DNA of 37,271 nucleotides. Origin: Gammaproteobacteria bacterium (lineage in GTDB: Bacteria > Pseudomonadota > Gammaproteobacteria > CAIRSR01). The position numbers were made by a program, and so were the translations under genes. Location of the stretch: positions 1-37,271 of the forward strand of contig CAUYTY010000187.1 in NCBI GenBank assembly GCA_963575655.1, written 5' to 3'. Shown here piece after piece: positions 8,193 to 33,600 of this stretch. Under the pieces are notes generated by a model that was not told the DNA's origin, did no database searches, and was given only the letters and a program-made list of their open reading frames with translations. Positions within the stretch are counted from its first letter, which is position 1. Each line of letters starts with the position of its first letter.

Positions 8193-8341
8193 TAACCCAA
8201 GTTGCCACCTATTCAAAATTCGGGATCGCATCCAATCGTCCCCCCTCAATCTCCCCGTAAACGGGGGGAGGTCTGCGGCCTACTCCCTCCCCGTTTACGG
8301 GGAGGGCTGGGGAGGGGGCAAGTAGGTGGCAACTTGGGTTA
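8193..8341. repeat. Family A inverted-repeat element (copy 1, long form)
   Basis: Ends are TAACCCAAGTTGCCACCT and, inverted, AGGTGGCAACTTGGGTTA. The interior holds two facing CCCCGTAAACGGGG / CCCCGTTTACGGGG palindromes. A closely related long form lies at 13977-14131. A degenerate half-end (CAAGTTGCTA) occurs just to the left at about 8181. It directly abuts the omega-RNA region of the iscB locus. Confidence 0.85.
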
Positions 8342-8347
8342 TCTAGT

Positions 8348-8647
8348 GTCTGATGGGAAACACGTCAATCACCCCAGGCTAAAGCCCGAGGCTTGTGAAA
8401 GCAAGCCCGAGATTGACCAGCCTTAGTCCGAGAAATCGGACTACGTTGCAACGAAGTACAAGACTCACCTTGGGGCGCTTCCTCAACTCCAAGCTCTGAA
8501 AGCAGCAGAAGCAGACACGCGACGGGTACGCACGAAACGGTCTGCTGCAAGGTTCGCAAGAATCGAAGCTGCGTTGCAACATTGGCGAGGGGAGCGAGCC
8601 GAAAGGCTCCGTCACTAGGCGCGTAAGCGCATTTTTTGAGAAGCAAA
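8348..8647 (+). ncRNA. Omega-RNA (HEARO) of the IscB locus, with 5' guide
   Basis: The region between the repeat and iscB is densely structured. GTCAATC (8364-8370) pairs with GATTGAC (8411-8417), enclosing GGCTTG/CAAGCC (8390-8407). AGTCCGA-GAAA-TCGGACT (8425-8442) forms a perfect hairpin. A 36-base block at 8464-8499 (CACCTTGGGG ... CTCCAAGCTCTGA) matches 31949-31984 in 26 of 36 positions, including a compensated pair change in the CTTGG/CCAAG stem. In known IscB systems the omega-RNA lies directly upstream of the nuclease gene and the roughly 16-base guide is at its 5' end. By that rule the guide would be 8348-8363. Exact ends are inferred. Confidence 0.8.
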
Positions 8648-9889
8648 ATGGCCGTTTTTGTATTAGACAAACGAAAGAATCCATTAATGCCGTGCAGCGA
8701 GAAGCGGGCTAGGAAGCTATTGAAAGCAAAGCGAGCGCGGGTGCATCGGCTTATCCCTTTCACAATTCGTGTTGTTGATCGCAAAGTAAGCGATTGTAAG
8801 CTGCAACCGCTTGAGATCAAGATTGATCCAGGCAGCAAAATCACAGGTATCGCAGTCGTGCGTAAAAGTGAAACGGTTGATACGAAAACCGGAGAAGTCG
8901 CCACTACTGCGAACGTAGTCAACCTGTTTGAGCTAACTCACCGTGGCCGTCAGATCAGTGAAGCATTGACATCACGGCGGCAAATGCGTCGGCGTAGACG
9001 TGGAAACCTACGTTATCGTGCTCCACGGTTCCTGAATCGTACCCGGCCTGCGGGGTGGCTTGCCCCAAGCTTCCAGCACCGCGTAAATACGACTCGATCA
9101 TGGATTGATCGTTTACAGCGATTAGCTCCTATTACATCTATCGCACAAGAACTTGTGCGTTTTGATATGCAGAAAATGGAGAATCCTGAGATTTCAGGAG
9201 TTGAGTATCAGCAAGGTACGTTAGAGGGCTACGAAGCCCGCGAATATTTATTAGAGAAATGGGCGAGCGAATGCGCTTATTGCGGAAAGAAGGATGTTCC
9301 GCTGAATATTGATCATATCCACCCAAAAGCAAGAGGGGGCAGCAATCGCATCAGTAATCTGACGTTGGCGTGCCATCCTTGTAACGAACAGAAAGGATCG
9401 CAAGATGCCAAAGTATTTCTTGCAAAAGATCCAAAGAGGTTAGAGCGGGTTTTGGCGCAAGCCAAGCGCCCATTGAAAGATGCAGCAGCCGTCAACGCCA
9501 CTCGTTGGACGTTGTTTCATTCGCTGAAGGAAACTGGCATGCCAGTTACCACAGGGTCAGGATGCCTGACTAAATTCAATCGGACAAGGTTATCGATACC
9601 GAAGACACACGCTCTTGATGCGGTATGTGTTGGAGAATTAAACGCTGTTGAGAATTGGCGGAAACCTACTCTAGCGATTAAAACTACTGGACGGGGAAGC
9701 TATCAACGTACTAGGTTAGATTCTTACGGATTTCCGCGTGGATATCTTACTTGGGAGAAACATATCAAAGGATTTCAAACTGGTGACATGGTTATTGCCA
9801 CGGTGACAAAAGGAAAGAAAGTTGGAATTCACCAGGGGCGGGTAGCTGTCCGAGCCGTCGGTAGTTTTACTAACCTGCGCGTTGGTTAG
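8648..9889 (+). CDS. iscB: IscB RNA-guided nuclease, 3' end replaced by IS630 insertion
   Basis: A 413-residue reading frame of the IscB family, ancestors of Cas9. Domains in order: PLMP motif (12-15), RuvC-I with Asp60 (KIDPGSKITGIAVV), arginine-rich bridge helix (about 109-130, RRQMRRRRRGNLRYR), RuvC-II with Glu168, HNH domain with zinc cysteines 209/212/242/245 and Asp222-His223, and RuvC-III with His321/Asp324 (KTHALDAVCVG). The ATG at 8648 gives the standard MAVFVLDKRKNPLMPC start. Native sequence stops at about residue 407 (GRVAVRAVGSF). The last residues (NLRVG) and stop codon are encoded by the IS630 end, so the usual terminal segment of the target-adjacent-motif-interacting domain is missing. 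All catalytic residues remain; activity is uncertain. Confidence 0.92.
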   Translation: MAVFVLDKRKNPLMPCSEKRARKLLKAKRARVHRLIPFTIRVVDRKVSDCKLQPLEIKIDPGSKITGIAVVRKSETVDTKTGEVATTANVVNLFELTHRGRQISEALTSRRQMRRRRRGNLRYRAPRFLNRTRPAGWLAPSFQHRVNTTRSWIDRLQRLAPITSIAQELVRFDMQKMENPEISGVEYQQGTLEGYEAREYLLEKWASECAYCGKKDVPLNIDHIHPKARGGSNRISNLTLACHPCNEQKGSQDAKVFLAKDPKRLERVLAQAKRPLKDAAAVNATRWTLFHSLKETGMPVTTGSGCLTKFNRTRLSIPKTHALDAVCVGELNAVENWRKPTLAIKTTGRGSYQRTRLDSYGFPRGYLTWEKHIKGFQTGDMVIATVTKGKKVGIHQGRVAVRAVGSFTNLRVG

Positions 9890-31035: not shown

Positions 31036-31836
31036 ATGATACCCAGGATCGCCGGTGCTTATAGCCCTGCGCCCTCGGCGCGGAAGAGTTGGAAGCTGTT
31101 CCGGCGTCGGCAGAATCGTCGCCGAGGGCTCAAGATCGTCCTGCTGTGGTGGATTCCGTTGGAGCTGGCGTTGGTAGCGCTTGTCACCTGGGGGCTGGAT
31201 ACCGGAATACGGATGCTTGCCGATCCGATGACGCTGCCGGTTAATGAGGTGCGCGTGGTGGGGGCACTCAAGCACCTCGACTCGGCACTCTTGGAGCAGG
31301 CGGTGATTCCGGCGGCCACTGGAGGATTTCTACGGGTGGACATCCTTGAGGTGCGTAAAGCTGCCATGGCCCTGCCCTGGGTAGACGATGCCCATGTGCG
31401 TCGCCTATGGCCGGATACCCTGCGCGTCACTGTGGTAGAGCAGGTGCCGGTGGCACGTTGGGGGGCAGGGGGATTGGTGAATGGGCGTGGCGAGGTTTTT
31501 ACCCCCGACCCGGCGACCTACCCCGAGGGGTTGCCCAATCTGAATGGGGCGCAGGGTAGTTCTGCAGATATGCTGGGTCATCTGCGTCGTTTGGACCAGG
31601 TTTTTGCGTCCCTTAAGCTCTCAGTGACCGCACTTCAGATAGACGAGCGGCGGGCCTGGACTATTACCTTGAGCAATGGAATCCAATTACTGCTGGGGAA
31701 AAACGATCTAGACAATCGATTGGCGCGTTTCTTACGCGTGTATCCTTCCGCTTTAGCGTCTCAGGCCGAGCGTATCGGGCGCGTCGACCTCCGCTACTCG
31801 AACGGTTTTGCTGTGGGATGGAAGCACGCCGCCTGA
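31036..31836 (+). CDS. ftsQ: Cell division protein FtsQ
   Basis: A 266-residue bitopic divisome protein: basic cytoplasmic tail (KLFRRRQNRRRGLK), one membrane helix (about 36-54), then a POTRA domain (about 66-136, VNEVRVVGALKHLD ... LWPDTLRVTVVEQVPVARW) and the FtsQ beta domain (LNGAQGS ... RIGRVDLRYSNGFAVGW). It forms FtsQLB with FtsL. It starts 30 bases after ddl. Unusually, it is separated from ftsA by 528 bases carrying an orphan omega-RNA. Confidence 0.95.
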   Translation: MIPRIAGAYSPAPSARKSWKLFRRRQNRRRGLKIVLLWWIPLELALVALVTWGLDTGIRMLADPMTLPVNEVRVVGALKHLDSALLEQAVIPAATGGFLRVDILEVRKAAMALPWVDDAHVRRLWPDTLRVTVVEQVPVARWGAGGLVNGRGEVFTPDPATYPEGLPNLNGAQGSSADMLGHLRRLDQVFASLKLSVTALQIDERRAWTITLSNGIQLLLGKNDLDNRLARFLRVYPSALASQAERIGRVDLRYSNGFAVGWKHAA

Positions 31837-31866
31837 GTTGAGTCGCCGCCTAACTTTTCAACCTAG

Positions 31867-32105
31867 CGGAATCCATTCTGCTGGCTGGAAAGTTTGAGAT
31901 TCAACCAGCCCGCCGAAGGGCAGCCGACAAGAAGAGAAGCGAAAGCGAGTCACCCTGGGATGCTTCTCCAGTCCCAGGCTCTGACGACGAAAGGAATGAC
32001 GGTCGAGACGGTACAAGACCCAATCCTTAGTCTGAACAAACTTCCTGCTCTGGGCGAGGAGACCTTGACTGGCGTAAGCCAAGTTACTCTTACGGGTTGA
32101 CAGCC
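31867..32105 (+). ncRNA. Stand-alone omega-RNA (HEARO-type) between ftsQ and ftsA
   Basis: GGCTGG (31883-31888) pairs with CCAGCC (31905-31910), with an inner TTGA-GAT-TCAA stem-loop. Downstream, 31949-31984 (CACCCTGGGA ... GTCCCAGGCTCTGA) matches the block at 8464-8499 of the iscB locus in 26 of 36 bases. The CCTGG/CCAGG stem here replaces CTTGG/CCAAG there, a compensated pair. The block also resembles the CACCCTGGGAT...CCAGTCCC core I recall from the characterised OgeuIscB omega-RNA. By analogy the guide would be the 16 bases 31867-31882. No iscB/isrB frame follows. The 3' end is approximate. Confidence 0.72.
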
Positions 32106-32143
32106 GGGAAAGATCGGCATTTTTACAGAAATGTCAAAGGCCG

Positions 32144-32254
32144 GTGGGCAGGCTGAACCTCAACGACAGCGGCTTCAGAATTGTCCTCGCGTCCTCAGCT
32201 CCATTACATTGTGCAACCGGACTGGGGGACGTCTCACTCCCGGTGCTCCTTTGA
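32144..32254 (+). pseudogene. Possible 3' relic of a formylglycine-generating-enzyme-like fold gene
   Basis: The frame encodes GRLNLNDSGFRIVLASSAP and about 17 further residues before a TGA. The NDSGFRIVLA pattern is typical of the end of FGE/SUMF1-like domains, including variable proteins of diversity-generating retroelements. No upstream domain remains. A GC-rich inverted repeat ACCGG/CCGGT (32216-32220, 32240-32244) lies inside its end. Identification rests on a short motif only. Confidence 0.35.
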
Positions 32255-32285
32255 GGAAGAAACCACGCGGTAAACGGTTGATCCA

Positions 32286-32314
32286 TTGATTTTCTATATC
32301 CATTTGGGTATAAA
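32286..32314 (+). promoter_or_regulatory. Candidate ftsA promoter
   Basis: TTGATT (32286-32291), 17-base spacer, TATAAA (32309-32314), 51 bases before the ftsA start. It lies just right of the inserted omega-RNA region, and could supply ftsA-ftsZ transcription independent of the upstream operon. Confidence 0.55.
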
Positions 32315-32364
32315 AAACACCTGTTGGTTATATTAGACACGTCACCCCACACGAAACACAGGCT

Positions 32365-33600
32365 ATGTCCAGGAAATCTGAAAAGAAGCTCATCGTTGCT
32401 CTCGACGTTGGTACCTCCAAGGTTGCCGCGATTGTCGGAGAGGTGGATGGGGATGGCGCGGTAGAGGTCCTTGGAGTTGGTACACATCCCTCCAGGGGGT
32501 TACGCAAAGGCGTGGTAGTTAACATCGAGTCTACCGTACAGAGTATTCAACGCGCCGTAGAGGATGCTGAAGCGAAATCTGGTTGTCAGATCCATTCGGT
32601 GTATACGGGGATCACCGGTAGCCATATCCGTAGCTTCAACTCTCATGGTGTGGTGCCCATCCGGGAAAAAGAGGTTACTGCCCTAGATCTGGATCGAGTC
32701 ATCGACGCCGCGCGTGCGGTAGCAATCCCGGCTGACCAGAAAGTTCTTCAAATTCTTCCCCAGGGTTTCATTATCGATAAACAAGAAGGCATCCGTGACC
32801 CAGTGGGCATGTCCGGGGTGCGTCTTGAGGCGCGGGTTCATATTATTACTGGGGCCGCGAGCGCCGCTGAGAATATCGTTAAGTGTGTGCAGCGTTGCAA
32901 CCTAGAGGTTGATGATATCATTCTCGATCAAGTGGCATCGAGCTATGCAGTACTTTCCGAGGATGAAAAAGACCTGGGGGTATGCCTGGTGGATATCGGC
33001 GGGGGTACTACTGATATCGCGGTGTTCACCGATGGTTTTATTCACCATACCGCAGTGATTCCCATTGCGGGTGACCAAGTAACCAATGATATTGCGGTCC
33101 ATCAGCGTACACCGACTCAAAATGCTGAAGAGATTAAGGTGCGTTACGCCTGTGCGCTGGCAAGCCTGGCAGACCCAGAGGATTCCATTGAAGTTCCCAG
33201 CGTTGGTGATCGCCCACCTCGGCGTTTACTCCGTCAGTCATTGGCGGAGGTGGTTCAGTGGCGTATGGATGAATTGCTCCGACTGGTTCAATCAGAATTG
33301 CAACACAGTGGCTTCGAGGATCTTATCCCTGCGGGGTTAGTATTCACCGGAGGTTCCTCACGGATGCAAGGGATCCTGGAATTAGCGGAACAGATCTTTA
33401 AAATGCCGGTGCGTTTGGGGGTACCCCAACAGGTAACCGGCAGTGAAGAGGTAATAGGTAATCCTGCTTACGCAACAGGAATAGGCCTATTAATGTTTGG
33501 GGCAGCAGCACGCAATGCCGTTATCCCTGAGCCGATTGGAGATGTTGGTGTGCGAGGTGTATTGCAGCGTATGAAAGGATGGTTCCAGGGAAATTTTTAA
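32365..33600 (+). CDS. ftsA: Cell division protein FtsA
   Basis: A 411-residue actin-like protein tethering FtsZ to the membrane. Seen: phosphate-1 LIVALDVGTSKVAAIVGEV, the family-specific 1C domain, LVDIGGGTTDIAVF phosphate-2, GLVFTGGSSRMQGILELAE adenosine motif, and a C-terminal amphipathic helix (MKGWFQGNF) for membrane binding. A short CAGG precedes the ATG. A 267-base gap to ftsZ contains no further gene. Confidence 0.97.
   Translation: MSRKSEKKLIVALDVGTSKVAAIVGEVDGDGAVEVLGVGTHPSRGLRKGVVVNIESTVQSIQRAVEDAEAKSGCQIHSVYTGITGSHIRSFNSHGVVPIREKEVTALDLDRVIDAARAVAIPADQKVLQILPQGFIIDKQEGIRDPVGMSGVRLEARVHIITGAASAAENIVKCVQRCNLEVDDIILDQVASSYAVLSEDEKDLGVCLVDIGGGTTDIAVFTDGFIHHTAVIPIAGDQVTNDIAVHQRTPTQNAEEIKVRYACALASLADPEDSIEVPSVGDRPPRRLLRQSLAEVVQWRMDELLRLVQSELQHSGFEDLIPAGLVFTGGSSRMQGILELAEQIFKMPVRLGVPQQVTGSEEVIGNPAYATGIGLLMFGAAARNAVIPEPIGDVGVRGVLQRMKGWFQGNF

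Follow-up and report, generated by a model that had tools for sequence, protein, structure and literature searches.

The window, by which we mean the whole stretch of 37,271 nucleotides analysed here, carries intact ftsQ and ftsA genes separated by a gap of 528 bases (Table 1). The first-pass annotation of this DNA had placed within this gap the core of an IscB omega-RNA (HEARO) with no nuclease gene beside it, and both points are borne out, as is the match of 26 bases out of 36 with the iscB-linked omega-RNA at 8464-8499, which is exact. The boundaries proposed at that time, 31867-32105, have to be widened: BLAST against the window's own genome and an alignment of copies with unrelated flanks put the true start at 31837, directly 3' of the ftsQ stop codon, and the true end at 32252. 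The suggested check of related genomes for an empty gap also gave such a site. In the sister species G001, which belongs to the same genus, ftsQ stops at the same codon and is followed by an element-free gap of 90 bases before ftsA; accordingly, ftsQ is not truncated in the window, and the element either inserted after the split from G001 or was lost in G001. The element was not found at the ftsQ-ftsA junction in any of the three family relatives (G001, G002 and G003), and its lack in G001 argues for a mobile insertion rather than for a domesticated ftsA leader.

Table 1. Positions in the window of the features discussed in the text
Feature	Position	Strand	Basis or remark
Omega-RNA of subfamily A, iscB-linked	8364-8630	+	Rfam HEARO, 106 bits at 8364-8600
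A-type iscB	8654-9889	+	NCBIfam guided_IscB, 451 bits; sole A-type iscB found in the genome
ftsQ, intact	31036-31836	+	Stop codon placed as in G001, the sister species
Putative guide, ~17 nt, GGAAGCACGCCGCCTGA	31820-31836	+	Left flank; 3' end of ftsQ with its stop codon
Complete non-autonomous element of subfamily B, ~416 bp	31837-32252	+	BLAST against own genome; alignment of copies with unrelated flanks
Guide adaptor hairpin	31837-31905	+	Rfam alignment, fold, covariation
Nexus pseudoknot hairpin	31951-31983	+	Stem 31954-31961/31971-31978, loop 31962-31970; Rfam alignment, covariation
Candidate pseudoknot strand UCUCC	31965-31969	+	Could pair with GGAGA at 32058-32062; read from the sequence
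Orphan-type 3' module, ~65 bp	32062-32126	+	In place of iscB
Terminator-like hairpin GCCGG-GAAAGA-TCGGC with ATTTTTA	32103-32124	+	Core of a 22-nt motif also present in phages
Right end of the element	32127-32252	+	~90% identity with the 3' end of the parent that carries iscB
Predicted TAM GAGGA (NNGG, mostly followed by A)	32253-32257	+	Right flank
ftsA, intact	32365-33600	+	

Two further observations concern this operon. Between the element and ftsA, within 32285-32320, stands the pair TTGATT-17-TATAAA, which a consensus scan did not list and which could be a candidate promoter letting ftsA tolerate an upstream terminator. In this part of the operon, G001 carries another, distinct orphan HEARO, which lies immediately 3' of ftsA in the same orientation (L069/L170, G001:C77:26492-26784).

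Structure and constraint of the RNA

The Rfam HEARO model (RF02033) aligns over all of its 211 positions to the plus strand at 31837-32069, with an E-value of 1.7e-9 for 601 bases; the score of 51 bits lies under the gathering score of 83. This threshold does not separate real members of subfamily B, since one of the iscB-linked parents in this genome reaches just 50.5 bits, the subfamily as a whole ranging from 44 to 55. We therefore class the window RNA as an IscB omega-RNA on the grounds of its structure and parentage rather than of the Rfam threshold, and its carrier as a non-autonomous IscB element.

The first stem had been read as GGCTGG/CCAGCC, but in the Rfam alignment and in the fold alike these strands belong to separate helices. 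The true outer stem of the guide adaptor hairpin joins GTTGAGTC (31837-31844) to GATTCAAC (31898-31905), and six of its eight pairs change on both sides. The compensated stem noticed at the outset is real and corresponds to the 8-bp stem of the nexus hairpin, in which 7/8 pairs show changes of both partners when relatives are compared. Taking both helices together in 17 distinct relatives, 13 of the 16 pairs covary and 94.5% of the cells are paired, a level reached by none of 500 shuffles and to be compared with at most 52% in slid controls; the rows were chosen partly by requiring pairing of the first stem, which favours that stem, and the nexus hairpin was not so chosen. The putative UCUCC/GGAGA pairing is nearly invariant among subfamily copies, leaving little to covary within the subfamily, and the position of UCUCC agrees with the nexus pseudoknot of the OgeuIscB omega-RNA (PMC9640706).

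The 290-nt RNA folds with a z-score of -3.3. Among 14 B orphans, nucleotide diversity (pi) is 0.041 for the HEARO core and 0.046 for the 3' module as against 0.103 for the right end, the RNA part being 2.5-fold less variable, and variable columns account for 56/292 positions of the RNA part versus 54/130 of the right end (p = 4e-6). The constraint thus spans ~290 bases and drops near the RNA end; the same trend, weaker, is seen in subfamily A (p = 0.055). It could be argued that this constraint stems from the needs of transposition or from gene conversion instead of guide function.

Copies, iscB-carrying parents and the orphan 3' end

When the gap was searched by BLAST against its own genome, ~17 other near-full-length copies with 91-93% identity emerged, along with many partial ones (genome-wide copy counts are taken from the search tools). 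The copies begin with GTTGAGTCGCCGCC and most of them finish with ..GTGCTCCTTC (CTTT in the window copy), lie mostly in intergenic gaps and have unrelated flanks, except for a few (L024, L025) whose flanks are common because they sit inside a larger duplicated stretch. The same genome contains two intact 1.71-kb IscB parent elements (C195:20996-22709 and C186:20632-22345), which have in common with the orphans ~225 bases on the left and ~130 on the right, with iscB in between. The encoded protein of 446 amino acids matches NCBIfam guided_IscB with 430 bits and is related to solved IscBs. Since the first ~230 bases of the window copy are 94% identical to the omega-RNA of the parents (e.g., the intact B-type L009), with 93-98% for all copies, the window element is best described as the nuclease-less form of an IscB element. 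Both element ends gain support from the C186 parent copy, which interrupts a radical-SAM gene: excising GTTGAG..CTTC gives an open frame in which the Radical_SAM domain spans the junction, free of gaps there when aligned with a paralogue and with a G002 homologue. Hence the features of a non-autonomous element are found together, namely many copies with the same ends and unrelated flanks, an autonomous parent in the genome, and an empty site seen both in a relative and by gene reconstruction.

A simple internal deletion of the parent is ruled out as the origin of the orphans, since ~65 bp after orphan position ~225 are not in the parent. This module reads CCC[GT]TA[AC]GGGYTGACAGCCGGGAAAGAYCGGCA, follows immediately after the HEARO 3' end and is common to the orphans of subfamilies A, A' and B and to orphans of G001 and G002. 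It was not found within 7-9 mismatches in the iscB-linked elements checked (L009, L010, the A element of the window, four in G001 and G002, and 29 relatives from other genomes). Allowing one mismatch, a 25-mer of the module occurs 63, 109 and 40 times in G000 (the window genome), G001 and G002, respectively; the remaining 271 genomes of the class gave no match. As all aligned full-length orphans have the same junction and module, the nuclease was lost once, before the copies spread.

The module contains a 22-nt motif, TGACAGCCGGGAAAGACCGGCA, at window positions 32098-32119, with one C-to-T change in the window copy. Exact matches to the motif occur in at least 120 viral-contig stretches (none for the reversed-letter control) and in ~10 unrelated annotated phages of E. 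coli, Klebsiella, Cronobacter, Pseudomonas, Acinetobacter and Stenotrophomonas, mostly in intergenic positions and sometimes beside tRNA genes (L171-L188, L219-L306). A run of T follows it in the B orphans and in many orphans of G001, for which reason the hairpin would be a terminator, and is missing from most phages. In the window copy the hairpin is weak, with one G-U pair, and the terminator scan stayed near chance (2 found versus 1.1 expected). No convincing, above-threshold Rfam match was obtained at the motif, and its 16-nt core was not printed in the literature searched. An orphan HEARO carrying this 3' module also lies on the minus strand of a contig filed as viral in IMG/VR (L177, 2966-3216, 110 bits), where 7.6 kb contain no iscB.

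It is tempting to speculate that the orphan omega-RNAs are a functional class apart, marked by a 3' end of their own: several unrelated HEARO subfamilies would have taken up one module around TGACAGCCGGGAAAGACCGGCA, and their RNAs would be processed or bound by some factor also used by phages and would jointly act in trans on a few shared IscBs. The exact recurrence of the motif in many unrelated phages would point to such a common factor, and we put forward this broader proposal tentatively. The common 3' hairpin in any case ties the orphan RNAs to an unnamed phage sequence motif that matches no Rfam family.

The imbalance between RNAs and nucleases is genome-wide. G000 has 70 HEARO matches versus three intact and two truncated iscB genes, and the ratio is higher in the sister species G001, with 119 matches versus one or two iscB genes (one near-complete, one internally shortened); G002 has 32 matches and two iscB genes, G003 none of either. 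Under stricter filters, HEARO occurs at E <= 1e-6 in just 10 of the 274 genomes of the class. Family genomes with 70, 119, 32 and no omega-RNA matches could therefore serve to test the retention of nuclease-less elements by their guide RNAs.

The window also holds a subfamily A element with its iscB. The A and A' orphans of G000 measure 378 and ~394 bp, and their right flank is ATGA (33-34/35 per position), a second TAM-like motif. Subfamily A orphans end with CTCGGGGACACTG, then ATGA, and in 11 copies (L029-L038, L122-L156) the ATG starts the next co-oriented frame, which suggests that the GGGGAC of this subfamily may act as a ribosome binding site. With a crude gene caller, A orphans are co-oriented with the downstream gene in 24/28 cases and with the upstream gene in 20/28, and B orphans with the upstream gene in 9/11, which fits a need for read-through; for subfamily A the bias might arise by motif choice alone, as ATGA often supplies the ATG with which the following gene begins. 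Window positions 8201-8341, which precede the A-type iscB element, form a G+C-rich inverted-repeat stretch that recurs with 98% identity in L038 and is probably another small repeat element.

Guide, TAM and proposed mode of action

In IscB complexes the omega-RNA begins with a guide of ~17 nt, to which the guide adaptor hairpin is directly joined, and the target is flanked by the TAM, which for OgeuIscB is NNRR (PMC9640706). Since each copy should have a guide of its own, the segment 31867-31882, formerly proposed for that role, is rejected: it belongs to the element and hardly varies among the copies. Across 15 copies the left flanks differ by insertion site and are free of any motif, while the right flanks read NNGG in 15/15, compatible with NNRR, with a subsequent A in 12/15. 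Together with the known position of the IscB guide (PMC9640706), this flank pattern suggests that the guide should be the 3' end of ftsQ (31820-31836) and predicts GAGGA as TAM. A 15-mer of this ftsQ-derived guide, AAGCACGCCGCCTGA, has one exact match in the genome, at its own site; other genomic targets were sought and set aside, as just matches with two mismatches turned up, at the control rate.

Our favoured reading, to which we assign a probability of roughly three in four, is that of a guide-RNA-only, non-autonomous element of the IscB family that is moved by a transposase acting in trans, loads a shared B-type IscB and so retains its insertion site. The element is mobile and multicopy, with recognizable ends and parentage, its RNA is conserved and covaries, and intact IscB genes are present at other genomic sites; the steps from transcription through loading in trans to cleavage at the empty site are deduced, as is the transposase. 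Such an element would have kept both ends and the full omega-RNA and swapped iscB for a short module ending the RNA in a terminator-like hairpin, and a transposase supplied in trans would have put it into the ftsQ-ftsA gap. Read-through of the division operon would then yield an RNA with the 3' end of ftsQ, the guide, at its 5' end, followed by the omega-RNA, and this RNA may load IscB from one of the two intact B-type elements. The complex would cut just those chromosomes lacking the insertion, where the end of ftsQ adjoins GAGGA, and repair from an element-bearing copy would restore the element; the occupied site would be spared because the element parts the guide target from the TAM. With dozens of copies and few intact nucleases, it seems reasonable that the copies probably borrow a shared IscB to hold their insertion sites. 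A guide acting in trans for an IscB elsewhere is also the best of the three readings originally offered, since the omega-RNAs linked to two intact iscB genes at other sites are 93-98% identical. If orphans do act in this way, a single IscB would work with dozens of guide-RNA genes, every one of them directed at the place where it is inserted, and this separation of nuclease and guide would be a step required in models that derive CRISPR-Cas9 from IscB.

As to mobilization, six Y1_Tnp matches, several of them fragments, were recorded in the genome, none shown to be linked to the element ends, and the search for plasmid relatives gave one partial match, in Methylobacter. Insertion into palindromes was considered and discarded: four of 16 flank pairs resemble inverted repeats, which is too weak (permutation p = 0.04).

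The main competitor holds that these are ordinary MITE-like elements, the omega-RNA being passive cargo within a left end needed for transposition, with no function in trans. Their multicopy, non-autonomous and mostly intergenic nature would suit this explanation, as would the view of the Limnospira authors, who discounted HEARO copies, regarding them as post-mobility intron remnants (PMC8400943). We nevertheless regard it as possible but unlikely, since a constraint of ~290 bases that falls off near the RNA end far exceeds a transposon end, and three subfamilies have the same stand-alone 3' end, absent from iscB-linked copies. The essential operon, the co-orientation, the terminator-like hairpin and the different orphan HEARO 3' of ftsA in G001 might rather evoke the domesticated regulatory RNA of the ftsQ-ftsA leader suggested initially, one that would control ftsA or ftsZ expression; the junction is element-free in three family relatives, including G001, ~17 other sites carry the same element and the window copy has no unique feature, making such a role very improbable.

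The third initial suggestion, the remnant of a lost IscB element, was right in that the element derives from one and has both ends in common with the iscB-carrying parent. Taken as the decay of a single local insertion whose nuclease was deleted at the site, it is contradicted by the same junction structure and 3' module in all aligned full-length orphans: what has multiplied is a form without nuclease that has acquired a 3' end of its own and whose RNA is under constraint, which is not decay, and we give next to no credence to this account. Many diverse guides for few nucleases formally resemble a CRISPR array, and one might imagine the orphan guides as a scattered defence against phages or plasmids; as the guides are flanks of the insertion sites, and the only exact genomic match of the window guide is its own site, this idea is scarcely credible.

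Comparison with known systems

The favoured reading, a guide-RNA-only IscB element, relates to several known systems. Like the IscB omega-RNA/HEARO family (RF02033), the window RNA has a guide adaptor hairpin at its left end, a nexus hairpin with a conserved CACC..GCUUC..CUG core and a possible pseudoknot pairing (architecture: PMC9640706). It departs from that family in that subfamily B scores under the cut-off of 83 even when iscB-linked, and the orphans end in a 3' module unseen in iscB-linked copies. Stand-alone or orphan HEARO RNAs were reportedly noted in other genomes by Weinberg et al. in 2009, and Altae-Tran et al. are said to have described orphan omega-RNAs in Ktedonobacter racemifer in 2021; as in those accounts, many omega-RNA copies here accompany few iscB genes per genome. 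What seems to be added here is the description of element ends, predicted TAMs, parents, differential constraint and the orphan 3' module. Orphan omega-RNAs as such have reportedly been described before; the combination of a stand-alone 3' end, constraint and scale seems new.

MITE-type derivatives of the IS200/IS605 family likewise keep both ends, lose the gene and presumably spread in trans, and as with them target duplication was not seen; the kept interior, however, is here a constrained RNA gene and not filler. A parallel in mode of action is IscB/TnpB-assisted transposon retention, reportedly established by Meers et al. in 2023, in which, as proposed for the window element, the guide corresponds to the left flank and the TAM is restored at the empty site alone. 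The difference is that in the present case the RNA and the nuclease would come from different loci.
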